Assembly: GCA_023251835.1 (NCBI GenBank)
Contig: JAHEXZ010000045.1
Coordinates: 1 to 43,865, forward strand
Origin: Bacteroidota bacterium
Lineage (GTDB): Bacteria > Bacteroidota > Bacteroidia > 2-12-FULL-35-15
Reading direction: 5' to 3'
DNA: 43,865 nt
Shown: one piece after another, positions 8,701 to 34,869 of the stretch
Position numbering within the stretch: position 1 is the first letter of the stretch
Layout: each line of letters starts with the position of its first letter
Program-made: the position numbers and the translations under genes
The notes under the pieces: generated by a model
Told to the model about the DNA's origin: nothing
The model's input: only the letters and a program-made list of their open reading frames with translations
Databases searched by the model: none

Positions 8701-9022
8701 GTATTTTTTGAAATTCCTGATTTCCTGTCTGCATAACAGCTCTGTCACCGGAAGGATAAACACGCGGAGCAACATAGTGTTCCCAGCGTTTATATAAAAT
8801 ATAATTCTCATTTTCTTCTTCTATATTTTGCCCGAAGCTGAAAATTTTTTTTAGTTTTTCTTTCTTTTCTTTTTGTTCCTGGTATTTATTAAAAGATTTC
8901 TGTACATCATAAAAATTAACGGATGGATCCTGTATTTTATTAATCCATCCCTGTGCACCAGATTTATTGTATATAAAGACGAGTAGCAAGGCAATTAATA
9001 AGTGGGGTAGAATTTTATACAT
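5756..9022 (-). CDS. Secreted Asp-box/PKD protein with T9SS C-terminal sorting domain
   Basis: This protein of about 1088 residues starts with a signal peptide (MYKILPHLLIALLLVFIYNKSGAQ). The ATG at 9022 is preferred over an upstream TTG at 9049 because it places the signal peptide at the N-terminus. The body (roughly 120-790) contains about a dozen Asp-box/BNR repeats such as KTTNGGLTW, KSYDGGVNWS, KTTDGGTTWNT and KSTNGGSSWNN, arranged as in VPS10/sortilin-like beta-propellers. A PKD domain follows (PTSWQWSFPGGTPDTS), then Ig-like segments. The end, from SYILYPNPSNG through TWPKGIYTLTIKN to KKIVRY, is a type A T9SS sorting domain. It should be exported by Sec, then by the T9SS encoded at 22725-31052, and attached to or released from the cell surface. 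A catalytic role is not evident; adhesion or glycan binding is possible. Confidence 0.9.
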   Translation of the reverse strand: MYKILPHLLIALLLVFIYNKSGAQGWINKIQDPSVNFYDVQKSFNKYQEQKEKKEKLKKIFSFGQNIEEENENYILYKRWEHYVAPRVYPSGDRAVMQTGNQEFQKILSNHFYKSAMQAGGNWSPLGAFTIPADGGGAGRLNCIRFHPNNQNTIYVGAPSGGLWKTTNGGLTWSTNTDGLPSIGISDIAIDATDPDIMYIATGDIDASDTYSTGILKSVNGGLSWNITGLNWTTNQARDICRVIINPNDPNMLFAGANTGVFKSIDAGITWTKVLAASNIKDIELKPGDPSTIYAVSSTNFYKSTNTGNNFSVVNNGLPVSSTVGRIAIAVTPADPSYVYLLYTNSTDFGFLGLYRSINSGTSFTMQSDSPNLLGYDTDGQDSGGNGWYTLSLAVSPASQNEIVVGGVNIWKSYDGGVNWSLNAHWTGDGGAPYVHADIHDLIYRPDGDTYYAATDGGIYSTSDGGVSWLDQSSGLQIGQMYRLGCAATNASLVLQGWQDNGTNLYSSGNWEAVLGGDGMECFIDWSDPTYMYAEYQNGALSRSLDGGANFSDIVNNISEPGQWITPWQQDPIDPQTIYAGFLNVWKSTDRGDTWAAISAFNSGGLTCLAVAKSNPLYIYASDGTTIYKTTDGGTTWNTLTNPAGSINTLTYIAVSESNPDKIWLTYSGYTADKKVYKSTNGGSSWNNISGNLPNIPVNCVVNQSGTTDGVYVGTDMGVYYTDAGITSWMPYSNGLPNVIVDELEIHYATNKLRAATYGRGLWETAIYNPASNLPFASFSADSLSGCPGLTVQFSDSTLNSPTSWQWSFPGGTPDTSTLQNPVITYNNPGTYNNVRLVVTNTYGTDSVTKNSYIAISPHIQPVISLSNNDSICEGQNTVLTSSTGNSFSWHPTNQTSQSINANTSGTYSVTVTDAMGCVLTSPTLSIYVFPAMPVPTISIQDDTLISSAISGNQWYLNGTIIPGATAQTYPTQGIFGSYTVVVTDSIGLCSATSAPYVGIEEFNNGISYILYPNPSNGPATLVLQSNQLSDLSIEITDALGKKIYFKNIPSFKGSMETSIDLTTWPKGIYTLTIKNSKGNASKKIVRY

Positions 9023-9102
9023 ATCAAAAGGAGCGTAATGCTTGTACAAGATACGGTTTTGTATGTACTATTTCAAATAAAAAATTTTACGCGATATAGT
9101 CC

Positions 9103-15925: not shown

Positions 15926-18292
15926 ATGAAAGTTTGTATAGCAGAAAAACCCAGTGTAGCTAAAGAGATTGCGGTAGTGTTGGGTGCAAATCAGCGTAAG
16001 GATGGATATTATGAGGGCAATGGATACCAGGTTACATGGAGCTTCGGGCATTTGTGCGAGTTGAAGGAACCTCATGAGTACGATTCAGTTTACAGAGAGT
16101 GGAATCTGAATATGTTGCCCATATTGCCCGAACGCTTTGGCATTAAGCTAAAGAATGATAAGGGAATCGAAAAACAGTTCAGTATTATTGCAACATTATT
16201 TTCGAATGCTGAGCAGATTATCAACTGTGGTGACGCAGGTCAGGAAGGGGAATTGATTCAGCGCTGGATTATTTCAAAAAGCAACTGTAAGAAACCACTA
16301 AAACGGTTATGGATTTCTTCACTCACGGAAGAAGCTATTCGCGAAGGGTTTAAAAAACTGAAAGAGGGTAAGGATTATGAAAGTCTTTATTTTGCCGGTT
16401 ATTCAAGGGCTGTAGCGGATTGGCTATTGGGCATGAATGCCACCCGCTTGTTTACATTGAAATACAGCAATGGTAAACAGGTACTTTCTATCGGGCGTGT
16501 ACAAACGCCCACGCTGGCAATGATTGTAAACCGGCAGGCGGAAATCAATAATTTTAAGCCAATTGTTTTTTTTGAGCTAAAGACGAAATACCGCGATGTT
16601 ATATTCAGCGCTAACCTGAATCGTTTTTATGAAAAGAATAAAAATGAAGGAGAACATATACTATCTACCATTAAAGATGCTTTATTTGAAATAACTTCTG
16701 TAGAAACTAAAAAAGGTAAGGAATTTGCCCCGAGGCTTTTTGATTTAACTTCATTACAGGTAGAGTGTAATAAAAAGTTTGGCTTTTCCGCTGACGATAC
16801 ATTAAAAACGATTCAAAACCTTTACGAGAAAAAATTTGTTACTTATCCGCGTGTAGATACAACCTACCTTCCTAATGATATTTATCCGAAAATACCTGGA
16901 ATACTTGCTTCGATGTCAGATTATCAGCAATTGATACAACCATTGCTGGGAGTCCCTGTCCGCAAGTCGAATAAGGTATTTGATGATAAAAAGGTGACAG
17001 ACCATCATGCTATAATTCCTACAAATATTGCTGCACAAGGTCTGTCGGGTAATGAAGCAAAAGTGTATGATATAATCGCGAAACGTTTTATTGCCGCATT
17101 CTATCCTGATTGTGAAGTAGCGAATACTTCTGTTTTAGGATTAGTGAGGGATATTGTGTTTAAAGTTACAGGGAAACAGATTTTGGAATCGGGATGGAGA
17201 GGTGTTTATAGCAAAGAAGGTCTTTCTGAGGAAGAACAGGAAGAAACGCAGTTGCTGCCTGTTTTCCGGAAAGGGGAGACCGGACCACATGAAGCCTGGC
17301 TGGCAGAAGGCAAAACTTCGCCTCCAAAGCCATATACAGAGGCTACTTTGCTAAGAGCTATGGAAACTGCGGGTAAGCAGATTGATGATGAGGAACTGCG
17401 TGATTTAATGAAAGATAATGGTATCGGCAGGCCTTCTACACGGGCTGCTATTATTGAAACATTGTTCCGCAGGAATTATATCCGCAGGGAGCGTAAAAAT
17501 ATTGTTCCTACAGCCATTGGTATAGAACTGATTGAAACCATCAGCAACGATTTGCTGAAATCAGCTGAACTGACAGGTAATTGGGAGTTCAAGCTCAGAC
17601 AAATTGAGAAAGGAAATTACGGAGCTGAGGCTTTCATTCAGGAAATGAAAATAATGGTAAGTGACCTGGTAACACAGGTAAAGAATGAGCATTCGAAACG
17701 AATCGCTATCGCAATGATTGATTCGGGCATAAATGAAAATCATCAGGAAACAGTGTATTGCCCTAAATGTAAAAATGGTAAAATGTTGAAAGGTAAGACT
17801 GCTTTTGGTTGTAGCGATTTTAAGAAAGGTTGTGATTTTAAAGTGCCGTTTGAACTTATGAATAAACGTTTGAGTGATAACCAGATATTAACGCTGGTAG
17901 AAAAAGGTAAAACACCTGTTGTTAAAGGGCTTAATGTTGGCGAGAATAAAAAGGATGGTGTTTTAAAACTTACTTCTGCATTTAATATTGAATTTGAAGA
18001 AAAACCCCCCTCGGTTCCTAAACATAAGAAGGAGGCCGTGCTTAAATGTCCGAAATGCAAAACTGGTATTGTTATTAAAGGTAATGCTGCGTATGGTTGC
18101 AGTATATGGAAGGATGGGTGTAGTTTCCGATTGCCGTATGTGTTTATGGATAAGCAACTGAGTGAAGCAGCAGTACAGGCTCTGATAAGGAAGGGAGAAA
18201 CTGCCGTTATCAAAGGGTTATTGAGTAATGGAACTAAAGTGAACGGAAAACTAAAATTTGATACTGCTTTTAATTTGGTTATGGATATGTAA
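15926..18292 (+). CDS. topB: DNA topoisomerase III (type IA)
   Basis: This 788-residue type IA topoisomerase relaxes or decatenates DNA through a single-strand break. The Toprim domain begins VCIAEKPSVAKEIA (Glu8) and contains GDAGQEGELIQRW, where the usual Arg of the DAGREGE-type motif is Gln. The catalytic Tyr307 is in VTYPRVDTTYLP. The C-terminus (~610-788) has two tandem zinc-type topoisomerase repeats, each with CPKCK at the front and a second Cys pair (FGCSDFKKGC, YGCSIWKDGC). Length and Cys repeats fit the TopB group rather than TopA, which is separately encoded at 32425-34869. It is followed after 83 bases by the PolX-PHP gene on the same strand. Confidence 0.93.
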   Translation: MKVCIAEKPSVAKEIAVVLGANQRKDGYYEGNGYQVTWSFGHLCELKEPHEYDSVYREWNLNMLPILPERFGIKLKNDKGIEKQFSIIATLFSNAEQIINCGDAGQEGELIQRWIISKSNCKKPLKRLWISSLTEEAIREGFKKLKEGKDYESLYFAGYSRAVADWLLGMNATRLFTLKYSNGKQVLSIGRVQTPTLAMIVNRQAEINNFKPIVFFELKTKYRDVIFSANLNRFYEKNKNEGEHILSTIKDALFEITSVETKKGKEFAPRLFDLTSLQVECNKKFGFSADDTLKTIQNLYEKKFVTYPRVDTTYLPNDIYPKIPGILASMSDYQQLIQPLLGVPVRKSNKVFDDKKVTDHHAIIPTNIAAQGLSGNEAKVYDIIAKRFIAAFYPDCEVANTSVLGLVRDIVFKVTGKQILESGWRGVYSKEGLSEEEQEETQLLPVFRKGETGPHEAWLAEGKTSPPKPYTEATLLRAMETAGKQIDDEELRDLMKDNGIGRPSTRAAIIETLFRRNYIRRERKNIVPTAIGIELIETISNDLLKSAELTGNWEFKLRQIEKGNYGAEAFIQEMKIMVSDLVTQVKNEHSKRIAIAMIDSGINENHQETVYCPKCKNGKMLKGKTAFGCSDFKKGCDFKVPFELMNKRLSDNQILTLVEKGKTPVVKGLNVGENKKDGVLKLTSAFNIEFEEKPPSVPKHKKEAVLKCPKCKTGIVIKGNAAYGCSIWKDGCSFRLPYVFMDKQLSEAAVQALIRKGETAVIKGLLSNGTKVNGKLKFDTAFNLVMDM

Positions 18293-18375
18293 AGGTCTGC
18301 TACATTTTTCTCTGTTTCGTTAGAAATAGCAGGAGTATAGAAGAACTCGAACATATTTTACAAATAAGATTTATA

Positions 18376-19983
18376 ATGACAACTGAAGAAATAGCACGTG
18401 CGCTGAAACTCACAGCTCAGTTGATGGAACTGCACAATGAAAATCCATTTAAAATAAAGTCGATTGCCAATGCTGCTTATAAGCTGAATAAAACAGATAT
18501 TTCATTAGAAGGAAAATCGATGCATGAAATGGAGCAGATTGAGGGGATAGGAAAAGGTATTGCTGCGAAAATCAATGAGTTGCAAATCACAGGTAATCTG
18601 AAGGAACTGGCTGACATGGTGGAGAAAACGCCTGCCGGAGTTATTGATATGATGCATGTGAAAGGGATTGGACCTAAGAAAGTAGGACAGCTTTGGCGCG
18701 AGCTGGAAATTGAAAGTATTGGGGAATTGTTATATGCATGTAATGAAAATCGCTTGATTACCTTAAAGGGTTTTGGTGCTAAAACGCAGGCCGAAGTGAA
18801 AAAACAGATTGAGTTTCACGAGTTCAATCGTGGAAAATTTCATTATGCCTCTGTTGAACAGTTTGCTATAGATTTGGTAGAAATATTGAAAAAAAAATAT
18901 AATACAGAATTGGTATCTCTTACCGGAGCCATGCACAGGAAGTGCGAAGTGATTGATAAGATTCAGATTTTAATTGCTTCGGAAAATGATGTTACTATTG
19001 GTGATATAGAGAGCAGGATAAATGTATCGGTTGAATTAATAGTCTGTAGCCCTGCAGTATTTTATACACGGCTTTTTGAAACTACTGCTTCTGAAAAGCA
19101 TTTGGCACAAACGGGCTATTCAGTGGGTAATGTATATGCTTCGGAGCAGGAAATTTATAAAGCGCTTCAGCTACAATACATAGAGCCAGAGTTGCGTGAA
19201 GGGTTGAATGAGGTGGCTATGGCAAAGGAGAATAAAATACCCAAATTGGTAATGATTTCGGAGCTACGTGGTGCATTGCATAATCACAGTACTTATAGTG
19301 ACGGCTTGCACACCCTGAAAGAAATGGCTGAATATTGTAAAGAATTAGGATATGAATATCTGGGTATCTGCGACCATTCTCAATCGGCTTTTTATGCCGA
19401 AGGCTTAAAGCCGGAGCGTGTCTTACAGCAGCATGCAGAAATAGATAATCTGAACAAACAGCTTTTTCCGTTTAAAATTTTTAAGGGTATTGAAAGTGAT
19501 ATTTTAAATGATGGTTCATTGGATTATCCGGAAAGTATTCTGAAAACATTTGATTTTATTGTGGCTTCCGTACATTCCAATTTAAAGATGAATGAAGAAA
19601 AGGCTACAGCCCGTATTATCAAAGCTGTTCAGAATCCTTATACAACCATATTGGGACATCCTACAGGGCGCCTGCTATTGTCGCGTTCCGGCTACCCGAT
19701 TGACCATAAAAAAATAATTGATGCCTGTGCCGCTAATGGTGTTATAATAGAGCTGAATGCTCATCCTTACCGCCTGGATATTGACTGGCGCTGGATCCCA
19801 TATTGTATGGAGAAAGGGGTAATGGTATCCATTAATCCGGATGCACATCAAAAGCAGGGATATTATGATATGTATTATGGTGTATGTACTGCACGCAAAG
19901 GAATGCTGACCAGGGAGATGTGCTTTAACGCAATAGGCAGGGTGGAGTTACAGGCGTATTTTGAGAGGAGGAAAAATAAATAA
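18376..19983 (+). CDS. PolX-like protein with degenerate polymerase site and intact PHP domain
   Basis: This 535-residue protein has the bacterial PolX layout: an N-terminal 8-kDa-like domain and helix-hairpin-helix motifs (IEGIGKGIAAKI ~55-66, VKGIGPKKVGQLW ~95-107, LKGFGAKTQAEV ~130-141), a nucleotidyltransferase palm, and a C-terminal PHP phosphoesterase. The PHP metal ligands look complete: ALHNHSTYSDG, CDHS, GIESDI, VASVHSN, LGHPTGR, NAHPYR and NPDAHQ. In the palm, TGAMHRKCEVIDKIQILIAS (183-202) aligns without gaps to the active PolX motif, but the two catalytic Asp positions are Lys195 and Gln197. A third, VDLR-type site reads VELI. It is therefore probably a DNA-binding PHP nuclease or phosphatase without polymerase activity. 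It ends four bases from the convergent gene at 19988. Confidence 0.85.
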   Translation: MTTEEIARALKLTAQLMELHNENPFKIKSIANAAYKLNKTDISLEGKSMHEMEQIEGIGKGIAAKINELQITGNLKELADMVEKTPAGVIDMMHVKGIGPKKVGQLWRELEIESIGELLYACNENRLITLKGFGAKTQAEVKKQIEFHEFNRGKFHYASVEQFAIDLVEILKKKYNTELVSLTGAMHRKCEVIDKIQILIASENDVTIGDIESRINVSVELIVCSPAVFYTRLFETTASEKHLAQTGYSVGNVYASEQEIYKALQLQYIEPELREGLNEVAMAKENKIPKLVMISELRGALHNHSTYSDGLHTLKEMAEYCKELGYEYLGICDHSQSAFYAEGLKPERVLQQHAEIDNLNKQLFPFKIFKGIESDILNDGSLDYPESILKTFDFIVASVHSNLKMNEEKATARIIKAVQNPYTTILGHPTGRLLLSRSGYPIDHKKIIDACAANGVIIELNAHPYRLDIDWRWIPYCMEKGVMVSINPDAHQKQGYYDMYYGVCTARKGMLTREMCFNAIGRVELQAYFERRKNK

Positions 19984-22724: not shown

Positions 22725-23594
22725 TTAATAATGCCAAAAGTCGTGTTCAAATTCAAAGATATCTTCTTTTATCTTTTCAGATTCTAATAACGCACCGATT
22801 CCTGAAGTGTATTCAGCAATATATCTGTCATAAACATTGCTCTCTTTTACTATATAACTTGAAAACATTCGCTTCCAGAATATGTCATCGAAGCTTCTTC
22901 TTTCTGCATCATTATGGCGCATATAAACATCATGGTTTGCCAGAACCGGACGTATTTCCGGAAAATAAACCCAAAATAATGGCTTATCCCCACCTGCATC
23001 TTCTCCATTTTCAGTTTTTTTTGCTGTTACTACTAATATTCCGAGGATCCTTACATCCATTACTGATCGCTGTTTGTCAAAGAACCAATCTTCTTTAATC
23101 CAATATTTGGTAATATCCTCAGAGGTAATTTCTTTTTTTATGGGAGAAGTAATCATTTCCCCAGGATTCTCGGGGTTTTCAGTTTGGTGTGTTGAGTCCC
23201 AATTAACAAGAATGGCTTCTATTTCGCTTCTGGATAAAGGAACCTGAAATTCATCGTCAGTAGGGCTAAAGCAGGTAATTGTACTGTCTTTAAGAGCCCC
23301 GTCCTTTATCACATCAAATAAACTTTTTCTGTCTTTTACCGGTATTGTTGGATAGTATAAAGGAAAATTGAATTTTTCTTTTAAATTAATTACACGCCAT
23401 ACCCGTTTGCTCCACATTACATCTGCTTCACGCACATTAGCATACGTAATGGGTTTTCTGTCGTAAACATGTTGTTTGGAATATATGTTTTGGGGAGGAC
23501 TTATAACTTTTGCATTTGGCGTTAATTGTCCGTAAACCATGCGAGCATACCCTGTAGTGATTAACACCGCTATCAAATACTTCAATATTTTCAT
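22725..23594 (-). CDS. GldN-like T9SS protein, second copy (gldO-like)
   Basis: This 289-residue exported protein (signal peptide MKILKYLIAVLITTGYARMVYG) is a close paralogue of the GldN encoded at 24893-25774. Shared blocks include READVMWSKRVWRVINLKEK, KPLFWVYFPEIRP and NVYDRYIAEYTSGIGAL, and both end in FEHDxWHx. GldN/PorN binds GldK and forms the periplasmic ring attached to the outer membrane in T9SS. In Flavobacterium johnsoniae gldN has a partly redundant neighbour, gldO, and this gene may be equivalent. It is separated from the core operon by a terminator and a DUF457 gene, so it is probably transcribed on its own. Confidence 0.9.
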   Translation of the reverse strand: MKILKYLIAVLITTGYARMVYGQLTPNAKVISPPQNIYSKQHVYDRKPITYANVREADVMWSKRVWRVINLKEKFNFPLYYPTIPVKDRKSLFDVIKDGALKDSTITCFSPTDDEFQVPLSRSEIEAILVNWDSTHQTENPENPGEMITSPIKKEITSEDITKYWIKEDWFFDKQRSVMDVRILGILVVTAKKTENGEDAGGDKPLFWVYFPEIRPVLANHDVYMRHNDAERRSFDDIFWKRMFSSYIVKESNVYDRYIAEYTSGIGALLESEKIKEDIFEFEHDFWHY

Positions 23595-23776: not shown

Positions 23777-24790
23777 TTATTTTCCTTTTATTCTGGTAAC
23801 GAGCGATGAAATGGCTTCAGAATAGGAAGTTTTAAGTTTGCTTCGGTCTAAGACTCCTGAATTATCTGCATTTTCATCAATTACAAAAGAAAATACAAAT
23901 GTTGAGTCAGGGTTGTTCCATGCACCAATTTGGCCGAAACGTATGTCATTAAAGTATATACTGCTATCCCTTTTTGTAATGCAGTAATATCCTTTTGAGA
24001 ATTGTTTCAATAGTTTAATGGATTTATTATTCAGATGAGGTAGAAGCAATGAATCATTTTTATTCACATGGAAATATTCTACGTCATTTGTTTTGTCAAA
24101 TATTGAATAATATCCAAACCAATAGCCAGATTTATCAGGAGCATAGGCCATCCATAAAAAATTATTCAGTGGGGTAGGGGTAGTTACAATATCTGTGGTC
24201 TGTATATATTTTTTTTCTAATAATGATTCATGCATTTTATTGTGTACATGCCATTTATTTATAATTGTAAAGCCCAGATAAAGCGTACTAATTATTAAAC
24301 CTGTTTTGTTCCATTTTATCCGTTTTGGTGAACCATTTTTTGCAATTAAGGCAATAATGACGCAAACCAGAAAAGGAAGTGTATAAAAAATATCTGCAAC
24401 AAAAATGGTGTTAAAAGCAACACGATAGCTGTTGAATGGTTCAAACCATCCTGTACCATAAGCAGTAAGGGAATCAATAATTATATGTGAAAACAAACCT
24501 AAGAAAAACAACCAAGACCAGCTTCTCCAGCTCACTTCTATTTTTTTATACCATCTGCTTAACAGCCATCCCAGCAAAGGAGACATAACAACAGCAAATA
24601 AAATAGAATGTGTGATACCACGATGGACCATTAACTGTTGTGCATTTGAAAAACAAGGTGCTGCAAAAACATCAAGATCCGGGATGGTATCTGCAATTGC
24701 ACCCCACAACATAGCATGACGGCCAATTCGTTTGCCCAGCACAGCTTCTCCTATAGCTGCACCTAATACTATATGTGTCAATGAATCCAT
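23777..24790 (-). CDS. DUF457 / YdjM-like membrane-bound metal-dependent hydrolase
   Basis: This membrane protein of about 337 residues begins MDSLTHIVLGAAIGEAVLGKRIGRHAMLWGAIAD-type sequence, the conserved start of the DUF457 (YdjM, predicted metal-dependent hydrolase) family. His and Asp residues in DSLTHI, DTIPDLDV, HRGITHS and FSHIIIDSLTAYG are the presumed metal ligands. Several hydrophobic helices lie in the first 180 residues, followed by a soluble C-terminal part. I chose the ATG at 24790, not the upstream 24817, because homology starts at MDSLTH. It sits between the two gldN copies on the same strand, and a terminator after gldN separates it from that gene. Its substrate is unknown, and a role in secretion is only a possibility. 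Confidence 0.85.
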   Translation of the reverse strand: MDSLTHIVLGAAIGEAVLGKRIGRHAMLWGAIADTIPDLDVFAAPCFSNAQQLMVHRGITHSILFAVVMSPLLGWLLSRWYKKIEVSWRSWSWLFFLGLFSHIIIDSLTAYGTGWFEPFNSYRVAFNTIFVADIFYTLPFLVCVIIALIAKNGSPKRIKWNKTGLIISTLYLGFTIINKWHVHNKMHESLLEKKYIQTTDIVTTPTPLNNFLWMAYAPDKSGYWFGYYSIFDKTNDVEYFHVNKNDSLLLPHLNNKSIKLLKQFSKGYYCITKRDSSIYFNDIRFGQIGAWNNPDSTFVFSFVIDENADNSGVLDRSKLKTSYSEAISSLVTRIKGK

Positions 24791-24820
24791 ATAACAATAA
24801 GAGTAATGGAATCTCAAAGT

Positions 24821-24892: not shown

Positions 24893-25774
24893 TCAGAAAT
24901 GCCACAAGTCGTGTTCAAATTTAAATATATCTTCTTTTACTCTTTCGGCCTCAAACAGAGCGTTTATTCCACTTGTATATTCCGAAATATATCTATCGTA
25001 CACGTTGCTTTCTTTTATTACATAACTTGAGAACATACGTTTCCAAAAGATATCCTCTAAGGTTCTTCTTTCTGCATCATTATGACGCATATATACTTCC
25101 TGATTTGCTAATATTGGTCTTATTTCCGGGAAATATACCCAAAACAATGGTTTATCAGCACCTTGGTCCTCACCTGTTTCTGATACCTTAGGGATTACCA
25201 CTAATAGCCCGATTATACGAACATCAAGAACAGAGCGTTGTTTATCATAAAACCAATCTTCTTTCATCCAATATTTAGAAATTTTTTCTGAATTAATCTC
25301 ATTTTTTACAGGTGCAGAAATAAACTGGCCAGGGTTATTAGGGTCTTCAGTTGTAGCTGAGGAATCCCATTGAACCAATAAGTTTTCTACTTCGCTTTTG
25401 GTAAATTCAATCCGAAATTCATCATCAGTAGAATTAAAACATGAAATTACTCCACTTTTAAGAGCTCCATCTTTTAGTACTTCAAACAAACTCTTTCTAT
25501 CTGCTATAGGTTGAGTAGGATAATATAAAGGGTGATTAATTTTTTCTTTCAGATTAATCACGCGCCATACACGTTTACTCCACATAACATCAGCTTCACG
25601 TAAAGAAGTGTAGGGTATAGGCCGTCTGCTTTGGCTGTTTTCTTTTGTATAAACACCATTGGGGTATTTAGGAGGCTTTATTACCTCTGCTCCACCTGAA
25701 GTTTGTTGCATATAACCGCTAAAAGGGAAATATGCGATGAGAAACAATGCTAAAATAAATTTTAGATTTTTCAT
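24893..25774 (-). CDS. gldN: Gliding motility / T9SS protein GldN (PorN)
   Basis: This protein of about 293 residues has a signal peptide (MKNLKFILALFLIAYFPFSG). The ATG at 25774 is used because the longer frame to 25807 only adds a non-signal stretch. The mature protein matches GldN/PorN throughout, with DVMWSKRVWRVINLKEK, DRKSLFEVLKDGAL, KEDWFYDKQRSVLDVRI, PLFWVYFPEIRP and RHNDAERRTLEDIFWKRMF. GldN interacts with the GldK lipoprotein to form the large periplasmic ring beneath the outer membrane and contacts GldM. It is the last gene of the operon after gldK, gldL and gldM and is followed by a hairpin terminator. Confidence 0.95.
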   Translation of the reverse strand: MKNLKFILALFLIAYFPFSGYMQQTSGGAEVIKPPKYPNGVYTKENSQSRRPIPYTSLREADVMWSKRVWRVINLKEKINHPLYYPTQPIADRKSLFEVLKDGALKSGVISCFNSTDDEFRIEFTKSEVENLLVQWDSSATTEDPNNPGQFISAPVKNEINSEKISKYWMKEDWFYDKQRSVLDVRIIGLLVVIPKVSETGEDQGADKPLFWVYFPEIRPILANQEVYMRHNDAERRTLEDIFWKRMFSSYVIKESNVYDRYISEYTSGINALFEAERVKEDIFKFEHDLWHF

Positions 25775-25871
25775 GGCGCTTTTTTTTAGTGATTTAGTTA
25801 GTAACATATTTACAACTCATATTAATGTTTCATTTTAAGAAACATCTTAAACAAATTTTTATTCTCAAAAG

Positions 25872-27482
25872 TTATTTTATTTTAATATTACAACCTACAA
25901 TTTTCCTATCACCGTCAGGTCCCTGCACATGCACATTCTCAATTAATATTTTGGAACCTTTTTTTGATTTAGAGATAAGTGCCTTCATGCCTGATGTAGC
26001 AGAGGCTCCTCTTGCTGTTTCTTCCTGAAACAATCCATTAATGTTCATTGACACTGTCCACTGAGTAACCGGAAACTTTAAGTCGAATACAAAGTCAGAT
26101 AAGTCAGCAATACAGCCCCCGGCTGCTTCTATTTCTCCTTTTGTAACAGAGCCGTCACCTGTAACTCCGGCAAACTTAGCAACAGGACTAGGAACCCTTC
26201 TGATACGGAACTTTTGTCCGGGACCCATTGATTTGGTTGTATTTGTTTTTGGGTCTTTTATGGCAACATTAACTGTACACTCTGTTCCACCTGTAACAGT
26301 TACTTCATAGTGTCCCTGACCTTTATTATCTATTCTACCATTTCCGGCTAAAGTTGCAACAACATTTGTTGGTGCGGCACCTGCAACCGAAATATCTACA
26401 GGATTTTGAACACCAATATAAAATACGTTCATTTTTGTTGGCGATACAGCAAACGATGGTTTAGCAACCATATAATTTGATTCAAAAGGATAAGATTTTA
26501 CACTACCATCCGGTGCTGTTACATTTACTAATCCGCTCCATGTTTGTAAGCCTTCAGATGATGGTCTGACTTTATATTTACCTAAGCCATTCTCAACGGG
26601 AATAACTATTGGAGTTCCTTTAATAGTCTTTGCCGCAGTATCAACCGAGCCAACTAAGATTTCAGGATTTTTGGTGGTACTATAAGCTGCCACAAATATA
26701 TCAGCCGAATATTCTTCTCCTAAAACAATATAGCTGGTAGGAGCAACAACGCGTGCAGTAATCATGTCAAATTTAAAGTCACCAGCATCAATGGCCCTTA
26801 GCAGTAAAGTAACAATATCGCTTTCAGCATTTTTTATTTCATTTTTTACCCCTGCAAGAAGACACATACAAGCAGCCATGGTAGTATGATCAAAATTAGA
26901 AACTTCCCAAGGCACTGTTTTCTCAGCATGATGGTCAAATACATCTTTTGTATTTAAAGATATTTTAAATCCTGCTTTATCTTTCTCAGGAACCATAGAA
27001 AGTACCAGTTCTCTATATTCGGCAATTCTCTTTTTTATTTCAACACCTTTTCCTGTTGGCTTGGATGCTTCAGGCCCAATCAAATAATTAGTTGGAATAT
27101 CATAATTATCATTTGATGTACCATTTTTTAACTGAAAAGTATCTGCTACCTCCTTAGTAAGTTCGGGTTGAGCTTGCCTATACAATTCAGATTTTGCTTC
27201 ATCTATAAATTCACATAATTTTTTAGCTTCTTCTCTTACTTTAAATGCTTTATCTGCCCAAGGTTGAGTTTTTAGTTTGTTTTCGGCTAGTCCCTTCTCA
27301 AATTTGGCATACAAAACGTCATTTTTTTCATCAAAATTTTTATTTGTGTTGTTTAATCCGTGTTCAACAGTAATAAAAGCGAGAAGAACATCTTTGGATA
27401 TATTCATTGCCAATAGTGCCGTTAGTACCAAATACATCATACCAATCATCTTTTGCCTACCGGTTTCTTTTCCTCCTGACAT
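25872..27482 (-). CDS. gldM: Gliding motility / T9SS motor protein GldM (PorM)
   Basis: This 536-residue protein has a short cytoplasmic N-terminus (MSGGKETGRQKMIGMM), one transmembrane helix (MYLVLTALLAMNISKDVLLAFI, ~15-37) and a long periplasmic part of four domains. GldM pairs with GldL to form the inner-membrane motor that uses the proton gradient, and its periplasmic domains reach up to the GldK/GldN ring. PSFAVSPTKMNVFYIGVQNPV and KFRIRRVPSPVAKFAG are conserved C-terminal domain blocks. Length is typical of the family. It starts 91 bases after gldL and lies 97 bases before gldN. Confidence 0.96.
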   Translation of the reverse strand: MSGGKETGRQKMIGMMYLVLTALLAMNISKDVLLAFITVEHGLNNTNKNFDEKNDVLYAKFEKGLAENKLKTQPWADKAFKVREEAKKLCEFIDEAKSELYRQAQPELTKEVADTFQLKNGTSNDNYDIPTNYLIGPEASKPTGKGVEIKKRIAEYRELVLSMVPEKDKAGFKISLNTKDVFDHHAEKTVPWEVSNFDHTTMAACMCLLAGVKNEIKNAESDIVTLLLRAIDAGDFKFDMITARVVAPTSYIVLGEEYSADIFVAAYSTTKNPEILVGSVDTAAKTIKGTPIVIPVENGLGKYKVRPSSEGLQTWSGLVNVTAPDGSVKSYPFESNYMVAKPSFAVSPTKMNVFYIGVQNPVDISVAGAAPTNVVATLAGNGRIDNKGQGHYEVTVTGGTECTVNVAIKDPKTNTTKSMGPGQKFRIRRVPSPVAKFAGVTGDGSVTKGEIEAAGGCIADLSDFVFDLKFPVTQWTVSMNINGLFQEETARGASATSGMKALISKSKKGSKILIENVHVQGPDGDRKIVGCNIKIK

Positions 27483-27573: not shown

Positions 27574-28470
27574 TTATCTTTTCATTGCGTTCAACATATT
27601 ACCATATACTGTGTTGAGAGCTTCAAGATTGGTCGATAACTGTGCTATTTGTTCTTTATACTTTCTTGTATCTTCAACAGAGTCGTTTAGATTTTTTAAT
27701 AAATCTTCCAGTCCGCCCTGAAAATGAGAGGTAGTTTTTATGTGGCTGTTAGAACTTTGTAGCTGTAATTCATAAGAAGCATTTAATGCAGATAAATTCT
27801 TTGCTACTTTTTGAAGTTCCTCTGTGAATGAATTTTGAGAATCATCATTTGCAAGGGCTTCAATAGCTGTGGTTGCTTTGCTATATGATTGCGAAAGTCT
27901 TTGAGTAGAAGTCTGCATAGTATCTTTCGCCTGATCGTAAGAATCAGCAAGTTCTTCAATTTTATCTTTTGCTTTATCATAGGAGCCTGAAAGGCTGCCA
28001 ACAGATGAAGCGGCACTTTTCATTGTGTTTGCAAATTCATTTGATGCAGCACCGGCATCAGCAATATCCGTTAGTTTAGCTGCCTGGTCACCAAGATGTT
28101 TCAGGTTATTTCCAAGACTTTCAATTAGTTCTGGTTCTAATTTAGCTTCTTCGAGCATATTATCTAATTGTTCAGTTAATGAACCTTTATCTTCTTCTAT
28201 TAAATTTTCTGTGAGCGCGTGACCTTCTTCACCATGCATACCTGCTAATTCCGGGTATACTAATGACCAATCAACCTCTTCGTGAGGCGGTTCAAAAGCT
28301 GAGAAAAAGAAGATAACAGCTTCTACGGATAATCCACAAACAAGCATTAGCCCTGCACCAGGCCAGTGCTGAATTTTAAACATAGCACCAACAATTACCA
28401 CTGCTGCGCCAATCCCATAGAGTTTGGCCATGAAATTTTTCCATCCTTTACTTCCAATAAAACCAGCCAT
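27574..28470 (-). CDS. gldL: Gliding motility / T9SS motor protein GldL (PorL)
   Basis: This 298-residue inner-membrane protein has two N-terminal helices (AKLYGIGAAVVIVGAMFKI and AGLMLVCGLSVEAVIFFFS) separated by the conserved QHWPGA turn. Glu50 in the second helix corresponds to the acidic residue thought to be needed for proton flow. The rest, from ~80 to 298, is a long cytoplasmic coiled coil rich in Ala, Gln, Ser and Lys, longer than in short GldL versions and more like PorL. GldL forms a pentamer around two GldM helices. It lies between gldK and gldM in the operon. Confidence 0.95.
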   Translation of the reverse strand: MAGFIGSKGWKNFMAKLYGIGAAVVIVGAMFKIQHWPGAGLMLVCGLSVEAVIFFFSAFEPPHEEVDWSLVYPELAGMHGEEGHALTENLIEEDKGSLTEQLDNMLEEAKLEPELIESLGNNLKHLGDQAAKLTDIADAGAASNEFANTMKSAASSVGSLSGSYDKAKDKIEELADSYDQAKDTMQTSTQRLSQSYSKATTAIEALANDDSQNSFTEELQKVAKNLSALNASYELQLQSSNSHIKTTSHFQGGLEDLLKNLNDSVEDTRKYKEQIAQLSTNLEALNTVYGNMLNAMKR

Positions 28471-28528: not shown

Positions 28529-29968
28529 TTAAAGATCATCACCTTTTGCGCGGCCAAGATAAGTTTGTACACAACGGAAACCAATGTAGCATTTTGCAGT
28601 ATCCTGGTATTCGTATGTTCTTGTATTGGTTTGCAGGTAATAACCTACATCTTTCCAGGATCCACCTCTAATGACTTTGCGTTTGAAGACATTAGCTTCA
28701 TTATCCTGGGCTTCATATACGTAGTCAGGGTTTAAATCATGAGAGAAGTCGTAAGCAGACTCATCAAATGCATTGCTTGTCCATTCTGCCACATTACCAG
28801 CCATACAATATAATCCATAATCATTTGGATTATATGAAATAGCTTTTACAGTATGGAAACCACCATCATCAATATAACTACCGCGCATTGGTTTAAAGTT
28901 ACCTAAGAAACAGCCTAATGCGTTTCTGATATATGCACCTCCCCAAGGGTAAGGACTCAGGGCATTACCACCTCTTGCAGCGTATTCCCATTCTGATTCT
29001 GTAGGCAGGCGAAAATCATTAACATAAGCCTGGCCATTGCCTTGCAACCAGTTGTTAAATAATTGTGTTCTCCAAATACAGAATGCCCTTGCCTGTTTCC
29101 ATGTAACACCTACTACGGGGTAGTCATCATAAGCCGGATGCCAAAAATACATATTAGTCATTGGTTCATTGAACGAATAAGTGAAATCATGAACCCAGGC
29201 TAATGTATCAGGATATACGTTTACTATATCTTTTACTATAAAAACACTTCTGTCCTTATCGGTTCTTTCGCGAGTACTATATTTTCCTCTACCATCGGAG
29301 ATTTCATCTTTTACGTCATATTGTCCCAACGTTTTATTATCACCAACACTGGTAGATTGGTAGCCATTTATAAAATTCTGTCCTGTCTTTTCATCCGGAG
29401 AGTTTGCTGGTTTAAAGCGGTTGGTTTTAGCTGCAGCTAAACGAAGGTTTATCCAGTAATATTCAAAGTTTAACTTTCTGGTATCAATTTGTCTGCGTCT
29501 GTAAAAGCGTTCTTCAGGTGGCAGATACATAAACTCTAACACCTCTCTTACGTCTTGTTCATCATACTTTATTTTTTCATCCCAGTTGATCAGCGGTGGT
29601 TCAAGAGGTTGATCATAGGCATCAGTTTCAATACCATGTTCAGCAACTCCGCTTTCAAATAAAGCATGGTGAGCAATAGAATCCTGAACGTACTGTACAA
29701 ATTGGCGGTATTCATTATTGGTTATCTCTGTTTGGTCAATATAAAACGCCTGAACAGAAACTGTTTTTGCTCTTGTGGTATGTGCATAAGGGGCATCTTC
29801 ATCACTAGTTCCCATATTATAGCTGCCCATAGGGATATGTAACATACCGAAGGGATCAATATCATACCATTCAGGACGTCCCTGAACGCCTACTAATTCT
29901 CCAGTACTTGTTTTACAGCCTGTAGCGGCTATAATAACTATGGAACTTAATAAGATGGCCTTTTTCAT
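28529..29968 (-). CDS. gldK: Gliding motility / T9SS lipoprotein GldK (PorK)
   Basis: This lipoprotein of about 479 residues has a signal sequence and lipobox (MKKAILLSSIVIIAATGCKT); the ATG at 29968 is chosen because it places the lipobox Cys at residue 18. The longer frame to 29992 adds eight residues before it. The mature protein has the formylglycine-generating-enzyme/sulfatase-modifying-factor fold, with IPMGSYNMGTSDEDAPYAHT, FYIDQTEITNNEYRQF, PTESEWEYAARGG and the C-terminal GGSWKDVGYYLQTNTR and YIGFRCVQTY. In GldK this fold is structural: the protein is an outer-membrane-anchored ring subunit that binds GldN. It follows porP/sprF on the same strand. Confidence 0.96.
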   Translation of the reverse strand: MKKAILLSSIVIIAATGCKTSTGELVGVQGRPEWYDIDPFGMLHIPMGSYNMGTSDEDAPYAHTTRAKTVSVQAFYIDQTEITNNEYRQFVQYVQDSIAHHALFESGVAEHGIETDAYDQPLEPPLINWDEKIKYDEQDVREVLEFMYLPPEERFYRRRQIDTRKLNFEYYWINLRLAAAKTNRFKPANSPDEKTGQNFINGYQSTSVGDNKTLGQYDVKDEISDGRGKYSTRERTDKDRSVFIVKDIVNVYPDTLAWVHDFTYSFNEPMTNMYFWHPAYDDYPVVGVTWKQARAFCIWRTQLFNNWLQGNGQAYVNDFRLPTESEWEYAARGGNALSPYPWGGAYIRNALGCFLGNFKPMRGSYIDDGGFHTVKAISYNPNDYGLYCMAGNVAEWTSNAFDESAYDFSHDLNPDYVYEAQDNEANVFKRKVIRGGSWKDVGYYLQTNTRTYEYQDTAKCYIGFRCVQTYLGRAKGDDL

Positions 29969-30098
29969 GTTTATTATATTTATATTAAACATTCCCTTTT
30001 AGGTTTCAAATTATCATAAAAATTTGACAAATTTGTTTAAAAGGGTTTTAAGTGTGCTTGAACGGTATTTTTAATTAAAAGTTACAAAAAAATTATTT

Positions 30099-31052
30099 TT
30101 ATAAAAACCTCACATTCATGTGACTGGAGGATTTTGTATCGCCTTTTATTTTATAACAGAAACCTAACATGATCTCGTGGGAGCCATTGCTATGGTTTTT
30201 AATTCCAGAAGTTGTTATATCATAAGAGTAACCGAACTTAGCAGTAAGCTTGGGGGTGAAGCTTTTTTCCAACCCAACAATTCCAACCATTGCATCACTT
30301 AAACGATATGAAAAGCCAGCAAATATCATTTTATTCCATTTTGCAATTAAATTTAAGTCCAATTGGGTAGCAGAGGCATCAGATTTTGCTAATACGGATG
30401 GAGTTAAATCAAATTGATTACCCAATTGAAATGTATATCCTGCCATTACGTAATAATGTCTTGCTACTTTATAATTAAAATCATATGAAGCAGCAGCTTT
30501 TTTTAGTTCTTGCTGTGGCAGATGTAATGATGATAAACCAACATATAGTCTGTTAGTTGTATAATAAAGTCCTAAACCAACATCATAAGTTACAGCAGAT
30601 GTTCCTGACCAGGGAATAGCCTGATCATTTCCTGGATTAGCAGTTGTGGTGCCATCAGGAGCAATGAAGTTTCCGGTAAGTGCTTTTTGAATCATTCCAG
30701 CATCTAATCCAATACCTAAAGAACCTGGCCCGAGTGGCAAATGGAATGAATATGCCAATTTTGCTTTTAAGGTTTTATCAAACCCTAATTGATCCTGGTC
30801 AATGGTAAGACCAACACCACCGTAGAGAACTTCGCCAAAATCAACGCTTAATAACCCTGTTTTAGGTGCGCCAGGGAAGGCAGTCCATTGTTGACGGTAT
30901 AATAAAGTACCACAAAGCGCTTTATTCATACCAGCATAAGCGGGATTAACGGCCAAACGGTTAAACATGTTCATACTGAACTGTGCGTCTTGCTGTGCAA
31001 ATGCCACAAGTCCGGTAATCAATAATGTAACAGTAGTAAGTTTTATTTTCAT
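30099..31052 (-). CDS. porP: T9SS outer-membrane protein PorP/SprF family
   Basis: This protein of about 317 residues has a signal peptide (MKIKLTTVTLLITGLVAFAQQ). The ATG at 31052 is used instead of an upstream 31100 start that would hide the signal peptide. The sequence begins QQDAQFSMNMFNRLAVNPAYAG, which is diagnostic of PorP/SprF, and continues with alternating strands of an outer-membrane beta-barrel. PorP is a core T9SS component near the GldK/GldN ring, and some SprF-type copies help secrete specific adhesins. Its position directly before gldK gives the same order as the Porphyromonas porPKLMN cluster, favouring the core function. A promoter lies upstream. Confidence 0.93.
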   Translation of the reverse strand: MKIKLTTVTLLITGLVAFAQQDAQFSMNMFNRLAVNPAYAGMNKALCGTLLYRQQWTAFPGAPKTGLLSVDFGEVLYGGVGLTIDQDQLGFDKTLKAKLAYSFHLPLGPGSLGIGLDAGMIQKALTGNFIAPDGTTTANPGNDQAIPWSGTSAVTYDVGLGLYYTTNRLYVGLSSLHLPQQELKKAAASYDFNYKVARHYYVMAGYTFQLGNQFDLTPSVLAKSDASATQLDLNLIAKWNKMIFAGFSYRLSDAMVGIVGLEKSFTPKLTAKFGYSYDITTSGIKNHSNGSHEIMLGFCYKIKGDTKSSSHMNVRFL

Positions 31053-31109
31053 ACGATATATTGTTATATTAAAACAATCTCTGCAATTTTTTAGGTACAC
31101 TTCAGGTCG

Positions 31110-31187: not shown

Positions 31188-32357
31188 TCATCCTAACTTT
31201 TGAAATGTTTGCCACCATTTGTCGGGCATTTCATCATTGCATGCTGTTTTATAGTCATTATAGGAGCAGGGAACCACATGATGCCGTTCATGTTTTATTT
31301 GATGGTTAGGGGGGTATGGAACATCCATCCACCATCGGTCACTTTTATTGCTTTTATAAAAAACGATTTCGTAGTCATGGTCTTTTATAGATACTCTGTA
31401 TTTTGTGTATTTAGATTTGTCAACTATTGGATAGTCCTGTTTTCTATTGTAATAGCCATCAATAAAATACCATATCATTTGAGCAACAAGATGTGCGGTT
31501 TGTTTGCTTGGATCGAATATTTGATTCATTTCATAGAAACCAATTGATGATAATTTATCACTCAAACCAGCATATCTTGTAATTTGGCATGCTTCTTCTC
31601 CGTGAAACCCGTTGGGTGAAGCGTTGCCATTACCAGGAGCATCGCTTTGCCGTATTGCTGAAATATCGAAGCTCATTAGATCTGCATTTCGTACTATTGG
31701 TTCAACTTCTTCTATATTGGCACGTACGTGTCCTAACCGGTGGGCATCAAAATACAATTTGTTCATTAACTCAATTGCATTTTGTTCAACAAAATAAGTT
31801 TGGTAGCCTATGTTGCTGTAATTAAAAAGTATATTGGGTTTGTGTAAAATTATTTTACTAAGATAACTTTGTGAATTCAGTTCTTTTTCACCATCGCCAA
31901 TATCAAAACAAGAATCAACGGTAACAATATTTATTGTTTGTTCGAGACTTGTGTATGCTTTATAGTTACAATAGGTTAAGTCCTGACTACCTCCAATAAT
32001 AATAGGGACAATATTTTTTTTTAGTAATTGGGAAAGAACATCGGTAATTGCAAAATAACTATCTTCAATGGTATTTCCTTTTTTGATATTTCCCAAGTCT
32101 GCAATTTTAGCGTTGTAGTTTCCCTGATATAATTTATACAGGTTTTCTCTAACGTAATCTGCGGAAAGGCCACAACCTTCATTGTTAACAGCCTTTCGGT
32201 CTTCTTCTACTCCAATGATTGCAAGGTTGATATTTTCGAGGTCAGGGAAGTCATTTTCATCAATGTAAGTTCTGATACGCTTTCCGTAGGATGATTCACT
32301 ATAATTATTTACTCCACTAAAATTAGTGATATTGATTGGGGTAAAATATTCTTGCAT
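31188..32357 (-). CDS. Ureohydrolase-fold protein (formimidoylglutamase-like) with lost metal ligands
   Basis: This 389-residue protein has the arginase/ureohydrolase fold but is poor in the residues that bind the two manganese ions. The usual GGDHS reads GGSQD (122-126), DAHxD reads DSCFD (148-152), and SFDxDxxDP reads SFDISAIRQ (229-237). So the first His, the middle His and one late Asp are missing. A C-terminal extension of about 100 residues, rich in Tyr, His and Trp, follows the fold. Databases often name such Bacteroidota proteins formimidoylglutamase, but activity is doubtful here. It lies between topA and porP/gldK on the same strand, a neighbourhood I recall as recurrent in this phylum, so a link to T9SS is possible but unproven. 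Confidence 0.8.
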   Translation of the reverse strand: MQEYFTPINITNFSGVNNYSESSYGKRIRTYIDENDFPDLENINLAIIGVEEDRKAVNNEGCGLSADYVRENLYKLYQGNYNAKIADLGNIKKGNTIEDSYFAITDVLSQLLKKNIVPIIIGGSQDLTYCNYKAYTSLEQTINIVTVDSCFDIGDGEKELNSQSYLSKIILHKPNILFNYSNIGYQTYFVEQNAIELMNKLYFDAHRLGHVRANIEEVEPIVRNADLMSFDISAIRQSDAPGNGNASPNGFHGEEACQITRYAGLSDKLSSIGFYEMNQIFDPSKQTAHLVAQMIWYFIDGYYNRKQDYPIVDKSKYTKYRVSIKDHDYEIVFYKSNKSDRWWMDVPYPPNHQIKHERHHVVPCSYNDYKTACNDEMPDKWWQTFQKLG

Positions 32358-32424: not shown

Positions 32425-34869
32425 TTATTTTTTAGCTGTTTTTTTATTATTTATCTTTGTTGCCATCTTCCCACCTGAGGGACGGGCAGGTTTCACAGGT
32501 GTTTTTTTTGTCACTTTCTTTGCTGGTGAGACTTTTGTGGATGCCTGTGTTGTTTCTTTTTTCTTAAAACGATTTCCCTTGCTTGCATTTTTTGGATCGG
32601 CAGCTATTGCGAGGCAATCCTCTAATGTAAGTTTTAATGGATCAACGCCTTTAGGCAGTTTATAGTTATTTTTATCGATTGCCAGATATGGTCCCCATCG
32701 GCCATTCAGCAGTTGTACTGATGAATTTTCGGGGAATGATTTGATATATTTATCAATTTCTGCCTGACGTTTTGCTTTGATAAGCTCTATTGCACGTTCC
32801 GCAGAGATTGTCATAGGATCATCTTCTTTTTTTAGGGAGACAAAAGCATTGTTATGCTTGATATATGGGCCGAAGCGGCCTATAGCAACTGTCATTTCTT
32901 TTCCTTCAAACTCACCTACGGTTCGAGGCAGCTTAAACAAGTCCATTGCATCCTCAAAAGTGATAGAATCAATGCGTTGGTCTTTTCGTAATGCGGCAAA
33001 TCTGGGTTTATTATTTTCGTCATTACTTTCTCCGAGCTGAGCCATCGGGCCAAAGCGGCCGATACGTACATATAAATTTTTTCCTGTTTGGGTGTCAACT
33101 CCTAATAAACGTTCCCCGGAGGCGCGTTCAGAGTGTTCGGAAGTATTTATTACAGTTTTATGGAAAGGTTTATAGAATGCTTCCAGCATTTTTGTCCATG
33201 AGATTTTTCCTTCAGCAATTTCATCAAATTCTTCTTCCACTTTTGCAGTGAAATTGAAATCCATAATTTGAGGGAATTGGGTCAATAGAAAATCGGTTAC
33301 AACCATTCCAATATCGGTAGGAAATAATTTAGCTTTTTCGGCACCTGTATTTTCTGTTTTAATTTCTTCGGTTATTTTGCCGTTTATTAAGGCAGCGATA
33401 TTGTAATTGCGTTGTATACCCTGGCGGTCTTCTTTTACAACATATTCTCTTTTTTGGATAGTTGAAATTGTAGGGGCATAGGTTGATGGCCGTCCTATAC
33501 CCAGTTCTTCTAATTTTTTAACTAAACTTGCTTCGGTATAGCGTGCAGGGTGATGTGTAAATCGCTCTGTAGCTATAATTTCATTTGATTTGAGTGTTTC
33601 TCCTACTTTTAAAGGGGGTAATATAGCTTCCAGATTTTCTTCATCTTCATCATCAGTACCTTCGAGGTATATTTTCAGGAACCCATCAAATTTGAGTACT
33701 TCGCCTTGAGCAATAAATTTTTCTGAAGCGCCTGAAACAGTAATGGTAGCAGTAGTTTTTTCCAATTCAGCATCACTCATTTGTGATGCAATTGTTCGTT
33801 TCCAGATGAGTTCGTATAAGCGTTTGTCGGCAGCATCGCCAGAGATGGTTGATTTATCAATATAAGTAGGGCGAATGGCTTCATGCGCTTCCTGTGCTCC
33901 TTTTGATTTAGTTTTATAGTGTCGTATATTAAGATATTTTGCTCCGTAGTTTGCCGTAATTGCTTCTTTTGCCTGGCTGATAGCGGTATCGGAAAGGTTC
34001 ACTGAATCCGTTCTCATATAAGTAATGTTACCACTTTCATATAATCTCTGTGCAACAACCATGGTTTGTGCAACGGAAAAACCCAGTTTACGGCTGGCTT
34101 CCTGTTGGAGGGTTGATGTAGTAAATGGTGCTGAAGGAGATTTTTTAGAAGGTTTGGTTTCAACATTATCAATAATAAAGTCGGCAGCAGCACATTTTTT
34201 AAGGAATGTACGAGCTTCATCCAGTGTTTTAAATTTTGTTCCCAGTTCGGCTTTAATAATTGAGTTACTACCTGAGAGGAAAGTTCCAATTACTTTATAA
34301 GAAGATGTGCTTTTAAAATTTATTATTTCACGTTCACGTTCTACAATTAATCGAACGGCTACGGATTGAACACGCCCTGCAGATAAGGAGGGGCGAACTT
34401 TTTTCCATAGCACTGGAGAGAGTTCAAAACCAACAAGGCGATCAAGAATTCTGCGAGCCTGTTGTGCATCCACTAAATGTTTGTCGATAGAACGGGGATT
34501 TGCTATGGCATTTTTAATGGCATTTTTTGTAATCTCGTGAAATACAATACGTTTCGTTTTCTTTTTATCAAGGTTTAATGATTCAAACAGGTGCCAGGAA
34601 ATAGCTTCTCCTTCGCGGTCTTCATCGGTTGCTAACCATACCATGTTGGCTCCTTTTGCTAATTTTTTTAATTCGGCTACAACTTTTGCTTTGTCTGGCG
34701 GTATTTCATAGTTTGGATTGAAATTATTTTCTATGTCTACTCCAAACCCCTTTTTAGCTAAATCACGAACATGTCCATAACTTGATTTTACTGTAAATCC
34801 TTCCCCTAAAAATCCTTCAATTGTTTTCGCCTTTGCCGGGGACTCCACTATTACTAAGTTGTTACTCAT
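32425..34869 (-). CDS. topA: DNA topoisomerase I (type IA)
   Basis: This 814-residue enzyme relaxes negative supercoils. The Toprim domain has VIVESPAKAKTIEGFLG and TDEDREGE (81-88), the catalytic Tyr284 is in ITYMRTDSVNLS, and the SAGRVQSVAVRLIVERE block is at ~163-180. The C-terminal part has topoisomerase repeats without zinc cysteines (GRFGPMAQLG, IGRFGPYIKH, GRWGPYLAI). The tail (~765-814) is very rich in Lys, Pro, Thr and Ala, like histone H1 tails, and probably binds DNA nonspecifically. It is divergent from miaB. Full length; no anomalies. Confidence 0.96.
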   Translation of the reverse strand: MSNNLVIVESPAKAKTIEGFLGEGFTVKSSYGHVRDLAKKGFGVDIENNFNPNYEIPPDKAKVVAELKKLAKGANMVWLATDEDREGEAISWHLFESLNLDKKKTKRIVFHEITKNAIKNAIANPRSIDKHLVDAQQARRILDRLVGFELSPVLWKKVRPSLSAGRVQSVAVRLIVEREREIINFKSTSSYKVIGTFLSGSNSIIKAELGTKFKTLDEARTFLKKCAAADFIIDNVETKPSKKSPSAPFTTSTLQQEASRKLGFSVAQTMVVAQRLYESGNITYMRTDSVNLSDTAISQAKEAITANYGAKYLNIRHYKTKSKGAQEAHEAIRPTYIDKSTISGDAADKRLYELIWKRTIASQMSDAELEKTTATITVSGASEKFIAQGEVLKFDGFLKIYLEGTDDEDEENLEAILPPLKVGETLKSNEIIATERFTHHPARYTEASLVKKLEELGIGRPSTYAPTISTIQKREYVVKEDRQGIQRNYNIAALINGKITEEIKTENTGAEKAKLFPTDIGMVVTDFLLTQFPQIMDFNFTAKVEEEFDEIAEGKISWTKMLEAFYKPFHKTVINTSEHSERASGERLLGVDTQTGKNLYVRIGRFGPMAQLGESNDENNKPRFAALRKDQRIDSITFEDAMDLFKLPRTVGEFEGKEMTVAIGRFGPYIKHNNAFVSLKKEDDPMTISAERAIELIKAKRQAEIDKYIKSFPENSSVQLLNGRWGPYLAIDKNNYKLPKGVDPLKLTLEDCLAIAADPKNASKGNRFKKKETTQASTKVSPAKKVTKKTPVKPARPSGGKMATKINNKKTAKK

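Follow-up and report, generated by a model that had tools for sequence, protein, structure and literature searches.

The window analysed here, a stretch of 43,865 nucleotides from a Bacteroidota genome, holds a gene for a protein (UH) whose modelled ureohydrolase fold has lost metal site B and is followed by a C-terminal domain of its own. UH has a single origin, is widely conserved in its class and is uncoupled from the T9SS, beside whose genes it lies in the window. Comparison with its orthologues and with enzymes of the arginase family makes it well supported that UH is a pseudoenzyme. As to its function, our preferred account, in which our confidence is evenly balanced, is that UH is a Bacteroidia-specific, non-catalytic and probably cytoplasmic binding or scaffold protein, perhaps a T9SS accessory and not a core part of that system. 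The features on which this account rests are listed in Table 1.

Table 1. Positions, in window coordinates, of UH, of its parts and of the neighbouring genes.
Feature	Coordinates	Strand	Remarks
UH gene	31188..32357	minus	389 aa; well-supported ureohydrolase-fold pseudoenzyme; stop codon 31188-31190
Ureohydrolase fold (predicted), residues 17-306	31440..32309	minus	AlphaFold2 pLDDT 94.0; VIA-align to 4myn
GGSQD, residues 122-126	31980..31994	minus	His ligand replaced by Q125; orthologues Q 117/141, H 12, N 9
DSCFD, residues 148-152	31902..31916	minus	D148 kept in 135/141, D152 in 129/141; second His replaced (H in 6/141)
E219-P-x-x-R223 patch	31689..31703	minus	specific to UH and near-invariant (E 100%, P 99%, R 100%); enzymes do not conserve it
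SFDISAI, residues 229-235	31653..31673	minus	D231 kept in 136/141; position 233 lacks the second Asp of DxD (Asp in 2/141)
UH-specific C-terminal domain, residues 307-389	31191..31439	minus	beta-rich, then two helices
RWWMDVP, residues 341-347	31317..31337	minus	W342 invariant in 88 aligned orthologues
VPCSY, residues 362-366	31260..31274	minus	C364 invariant in 88 aligned orthologues
topA, DNA topoisomerase I	32425..34869	minus	upstream neighbour of UH, 67 bp gap
porP/sprF-family gene	30099..31100	minus	downstream neighbour of UH; TIGR03519 226 bits
gldK/porK	28529..29992	minus	TIGR03525 570.6 bits
gldL/porL, motor	27574..28470	minus	TIGR03513 226.5 bits
gldM/porM, motor	25872..27482	minus	TIGR03517 327.7 bits
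gldN/porN	24893..25807	minus	TIGR03523 205.1 bits

The UH gene and its fold

The preliminary description of this DNA had given the gene the span 31188-32357, which is exact, and had placed it between topA and porP-gldK-gldL-gldM-gldN, which is likewise what we found, with all of these genes on one strand. The plus strand over the same span is full of stops. A chance open reading frame was ruled out by the presence of a homologue in 31 of 31 relatives, the window's own genome counted, together with a match to the Pfam Arginase family PF00491 (3.3e-24; 86.2 bits against a cut-off of 22). Two copies from a single genus, in genomes G032 and G376, are 66% identical and have intact frames; pN between them is 0.228 against a pS of 0.83 (dS is saturated), and this difference, with the conservation seen across orthologues, shows the gene to be under purifying selection. 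Along the minus strand from topA to porP no terminator-like site was found, and a promoter scan, using a Bacteroidota-type pattern, returned one -33/-7 candidate at 31774, within the UH gene; we attach no weight to either result. UH is probably cytoplasmic, judging by the lack of a signal peptide on inspection by eye.

An AlphaFold2 model of UH, calculated with 88 orthologues in the alignment, reached a pTM of 0.93. When UH residues 17-306 were compared with formiminoglutamase 4myn by VIA-align, 278 residues were aligned with a Z of 37.8 and an rmsd of 2.0 at 19% identity, and as modelled UH has the three-layer alpha-beta-alpha fold of the ureohydrolase superfamily. The solved structures nearest to UH, by fold and by sequence, are formiminoglutamases: those of T. 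cruzi (4mxr/4myn) and B. subtilis (3m1r) resemble it over UH residues 11-307 (Z 36-38), but UH differs from them in the low identity, in the loss of the second His and of the second Asp of the DxD motif, and in its additional C-terminal domain. In a tree of 27 UH and 28 enzyme sequences, from which L183 was left out because the wrong reading frame had been picked for it, UH formed a single clade with support 100/100. The genome from which the window comes has two further arginase-family genes, one of which (L184) shows canonical motifs.

The metal site and the C-terminal domain

Three altered motifs had been read in UH, GGSQD, DSCFD and SFDISAI, and all three are present at residues 122-126, 148-152 and 229-235. 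The accompanying statement that the binuclear Mn site has largely disappeared goes too far: Q125 and C150 each stand for a His and S233 for an Asp, but these are only three of the six ligands, and D148, D152 and D231 are kept. The window protein thus falls short, with 3/6, of the six binuclear ligands of a catalytic member. Among 141 distinct UH orthologues, a set from which L153, L155, L163 and L164 were excluded as partial (an exclusion that favours conservation), three ligands are kept in 112, four in 16 and two or fewer in 13, and five or six were found in none. By comparison, 28 of 30 enzyme loci have all six (HDHDDD) and the remaining two have five, these being the arginase-family loci from a search of 37 phylum genomes, with frames picked without the motif. 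Position 150, the place of the second His, is occupied by 15 residue types among the 141 orthologues, 133 of which have a non-canonical residue at 150 and at 233 alike. A Q/H/N-D-D-D pattern is nonetheless retained in 126/141, and D126 is conserved at 97%. Other near-invariant residues of UH, few of them conserved in enzymes, are Q186, F203, E219, P220, R223, C257, G264, W296 and G301.

In arginase numbering, the substitutions fall at H101, H126 and D234, and D124, D128 and D232 are kept. On this numbering, the alignments indicate that metal site B of UH is dismantled and that site A keeps three of its four ligands, without its His. Like UH, the T. cruzi formiminoglutamase is without the first His, having Asn at the H101 place (GGGND); since that enzyme is active, the losses at H126 and D234 are the ones that count. 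The preliminary description had held that UH is a pseudoenzyme and not formimidoylglutamase, and this view is borne out: UH is one clade, has at most four of six ligands in 141/141 members against six of six in 28/30 enzymes, and lies far below every curated NCBIfam cut-off. From its ligands, we infer that UH would be without ureohydrolase activity.

In two families the old site has decayed further, while the tail largely persists. At the f16 loci L151 and L152, N,S,I,S,N,D are found in place of the six ligands, and the tail motif is recognisable but altered (LWYF, IPCS). In two f18 proteins of 277-278 aa (L153 and L163) the first half is unrecognisable, but they keep EPF(I/V)RE, the RYAG helix, FYKSK.SGRWW and SCSYxDY; in L164, from the same family, the tail is eroded as well. 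Because the old metal site decays in these families and the gene stays, selection there is not on old-site chemistry.

The C-terminal extension, previously described as aromatic and about 100 residues long, is indeed rich in aromatic residues (16.9% F/W/Y against 11.8% elsewhere) but measures 83 residues. Its conservation is close to that of the rest of UH, with a mean commonest-residue frequency of 0.63 against 0.64 (0.66 for residues 317-389), and F333, too, is invariant among the 88 aligned orthologues. When the tails of 88 UH members were compared with Pfam, none came near a cut-off; the best match was to SH3b_P2 (E 0.0022; 4/88), and the phage baseplate plug Pam3_gp18 was matched in 5/88. 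A profile search of the PDB gave as its best match phage gp84, a weak one at E 0.038. The isolated tail was folded without an alignment and its model has a pLDDT of 65.4, a weak basis for fold searches; with it, the best Foldseek match was likewise weak (E 2.2), and VIA-align returned at best WRKY (Z 4.3), with PARP2 WGR also among the weak best matches, all within noise. The 88 members match 22 Pfam families in all, and neither WRKY nor WGR is one of them. A known fold for the tail was accordingly abandoned, all matches being weak and the model of low confidence, and, as far as these weak searches reach, neither Pfam nor the PDB offers a convincing relative of the domain.

Gene neighbourhood and co-occurrence with the T9SS

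Gene order around UH was compared in 80 named loci, which represent the closest relatives and not a random sample. Of the 62 loci that extend 3 kb upstream, 57 have topA adjoining UH; of the 56 that reach 2.5 kb downstream, 39 have porP next to it; and both neighbours are in place in 28/44; among 17 loci without an adjacent porP, topA still adjoins UH in 14. A wider, hand-chosen set of 80 genomes comprised 69 of 105 class genomes (every one of the 8 that lacked a match was retained, and close relatives were thinned out) and 11 relatives. In its 72 UH-positive genomes topA lies within 10 kb of UH in at least 35 and gldM within 15 kb in at least 29, counts that are minima owing to contig ends. 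Linkage to gldKLMN/porP, whose conservation the preliminary description had proposed to count and whose lack it had named as a refuting outcome, is common, and it varies by family: topA and gldM are both near UH in 18/18 genomes of f17, neither is near in 28/28 genomes of f14, f15, f21 and f22, and in f16 topA is within 10 kb in 6/7 genomes without linked gldM. Adjacency to topA is at least as well kept as linkage to the T9SS. Where loci have long flanks, the conserved block runs on through miaB, lptE, secG, groES and groEL, and since the whole groEL-to-gldN block is conserved, the linkage between UH and the T9SS is a weak argument.

Other arrangements also occur. In 3/5 genomes of f18 (L153, L163 and L164; gene names were determined for G094 and assigned by similarity in the others) UH and murF meet tail-to-tail, gldJ comes next and porU is nearby, and in two of the three porP, porU and porV are found beyond. 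UH is divergent from an NAD-dependent epimerase-like gene in f14, f11 and f2. The ring/motor operon itself has a second context at L195, L196, L201, L203, L204 and L205, where the order is hemD-(porP)-gldKLMN instead of topA-UH-(porP)-gldKLMN. hemD precedes porP or gldK in 6/6 genomes of f14, f15, f21, f22 and f23, which were picked for a gene of 254-276 aa before porP or gldK; G299 (f15) is without such a gene there.

Several further genes of the window and its relatives deserve mention. The window has two gldN/porN genes on the minus strand, at 22725-23594 and 24893-25807 (TIGR03523 223.7 and 205.1 bits), with a YdjM-like membrane gene (23777-24817) between them, and a second full-length gldM is found at G000:C165. 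A likely T9SS cargo, with Sortilin-Vps10 and PKD domains and a type A sorting tail, is encoded at 5756-9049 on the minus strand. On the plus strand, at 15926-19983, a second topoisomerase gene lies beside a PolX-like HHH/PHP gene (PolX being our own reading).

Across 392 genomes sampled from the phylum, UH was present in 97 of the 105 genomes of the class, as counted from the table, and a second query on eight UH-negative genomes was again without a significant match. Outside the class no match among those listed passes model position 321 of 385, so none of these has the tail. A MAG labelled Chlorobiota (L066) carries a UH 60% identical to that of the window and is perhaps mislabelled or a mixed bin.

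Co-occurrence with the T9SS was followed through SprA, with absences of UH and of SprA read as upper bounds, as the initial search may miss divergent copies. In a class sample of 148 genomes, UH was found in 141 and SprA in 143; 139 have both and three, all of family f24, have neither. UH occurs without SprA in two (G032 and G455, the latter a draft that is 95% complete), and SprA without UH in 4/143 (G425, G457, G367 and G403). Within the order of G260, SprA is present in 151 of 159 genomes and UH in 110, a count obtained from 116 by removing six enzyme-only matches (G566, G569, G597, G614, G662 and G683). Here UH is found in 0/8 genomes without SprA against 110/151 with it, and 41 of the 151 SprA-positive genomes are without UH. 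The association is significant by Fisher's test, kinship not being corrected for, in both the order (p 5e-5) and the class (p 6e-4).

In the set of 80 genomes, 5 of 76 with GldM are without UH, and all three f23 genomes (G220, G279 and G385) have GldM and SprA and no UH. Conversely, G376 has an intact UH and neither GldM nor SprA, and G032, a single contig, has an intact UH and GldM but not SprA; in G032 gldL-gldM is divergent from gldN-gldK, and no porP was found beside them. Across their genus, g14, SprA is present in 11 of 40 species and absent from 29. UH is thus not present wherever the T9SS is, nor missing from every genome without SprA, and UH and the T9SS are uncoupled in both directions. 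GldL length was considered as a correlate of UH loss and dropped, as the 16 gldM loci compared revealed no pattern with UH presence.

Candidate roles for UH

On our preferred account, UH would catalyse no ureohydrolase reaction and would serve for binding or as a scaffold. The C-terminal RWWMxVP/VPCSYxDY domain and the E219-P-x-x-R223 patch probably make up its binding face, and one metal ion, structural or sensing, may be held by the three carboxylates that are left. The likeliest partner would be the cell-envelope machinery, the best single candidate being the GldLM motor on its cytoplasmic side, where UH would serve as an accessory factor and not as a core part. The site-A carboxylates weigh against this account, as most members keep them and a pure scaffold would not obviously need them. 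So do the genomes that have a T9SS and no UH, the presence of UH without SprA in G032, G376 and the draft G455, and the length of GldL, which does not track UH presence. A more specific version, which we offer tentatively and hold to be rather unlikely, is that in most Bacteroidia UH is a cytoplasmic accessory of the T9SS/gliding motor, with its RWWM/PCSY domain docking either on GldL, at the cytoplasmic part, or on a T9SS component just after synthesis, and its three-carboxylate pocket reporting a metal or guanidino ligand.

There are precedents for an enzyme fold put to such use. GldK/PorK is reportedly a T9SS ring lipoprotein with a repurposed FGE enzyme fold, and like UH it belongs to the same gene run; it is, however, an outer-membrane lipoprotein and a core component, while UH probably resides in the cytoplasm and is missing from some genomes that have the T9SS. 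TbARG, an arginase-like protein of Trypanosoma brucei, is said to have been described by Hai in 2015 as having the ureohydrolase fold without the binuclear cluster, a likeness to UH, but it is eukaryotic and presumably has no C-terminal domain of the UH type. A further parallel concerns metformin hydrolase, whose inactive subunit (MetCb, or MefH beta) is reported to be a metal-free pseudoenzyme of the ureohydrolase family that acts by partner binding (PMC11271267, PMC11399263). It sets a precedent for action by binding, although its partner is an active ureohydrolase of the same gene cluster; in the window UH has no such gene as a neighbour, and it carries a new domain. The terms formimidoylglutamase, formiminoglutamase and arginase were not found among the matches listed in our literature search, which covers only part of the matching papers.

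The preliminary description had suggested recruitment to secretion or gliding, which is supported only in part. In the strong form of that idea UH would belong to the T9SS/gliding apparatus alone, perhaps as a subunit on the cytoplasmic side of the GldLM motor, or as a regulator either of that motor or of the biogenesis of PorP/GldK. We regard this as possible but unlikely. The topA-UH-(porP)-gldKLMN order in many families, f17 among them, speaks for it, as do the second T9SS neighbourhood in f18, the absence of UH from all eight SprA-negative genomes of one order, and the parallel of GldK. The idea is weakened by the T9SS-positive genomes that do without UH (f23, G367, G403 and those of the order of G260), by the persistence of UH without SprA in G032 and G376, and by the four families in which UH is not near gldM. 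In f18, moreover, UH is not co-transcribed with T9SS genes, as murF runs towards it, and the conserved block also contains miaB, lptE, secG, groES and groEL.

It is also conceivable, and in our judgement improbable, that UH is still an active enzyme, acting on a new substrate through a metal site that has been rebuilt and may be mononuclear. The retention of D148, D152, D231 and D126 fits such an enzyme, and the Asn of the active T. cruzi formiminoglutamase suggests that Q125 alone is not fatal. Yet positions 150 and 233 are jointly non-canonical in nearly all orthologues, position 150 is open to many residue types, and in f16 and f18 the carboxylates are lost too and the gene stays.

We give little credence to a housekeeping role for UH, linked to topA or to nucleic acid, with its proximity to the T9SS an inherited order. 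Adjacency to topA, which holds where porP is not adjacent and in f16, favours it, and the weak best matches of the tail include the WRKY and PARP2 WGR DNA-binding domains; but those matches, at Z 4.3 or less on a model of pLDDT 65 and with Foldseek E above 2, are at noise level, and the median net charge of the domain is only +1. topA is, moreover, present in 80/80 genomes while UH has been lost repeatedly, and it is unlinked in f14, f15, f21 and f22.

That UH is formimidoylglutamase (HutG), the name which the preliminary description called usual, is very improbable indeed: of the NCBIfam models hutG fits the window UH best and matches 86/88 members, and the best solved relatives are formiminoglutamases, but UH scores 85.4 bits against a cut-off of 229.15, and the lost ligands of site B, the separate clade and the extra domain also speak against this identity.

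A histidine-degradation call resting on UH would probably be wrong. A gene found across the class (141/148 genomes of the class sample, and 110/159 in one order) resembles HutG-type enzymes, is without a complete metal centre and has a domain of its own. Were UH an accessory of the motor, its gene run would hold two dead enzyme folds, that of GldK and its own. In genus g14, where 29 of 40 species are without SprA, there is a natural experiment on T9SS loss and on whether UH serves the T9SS.
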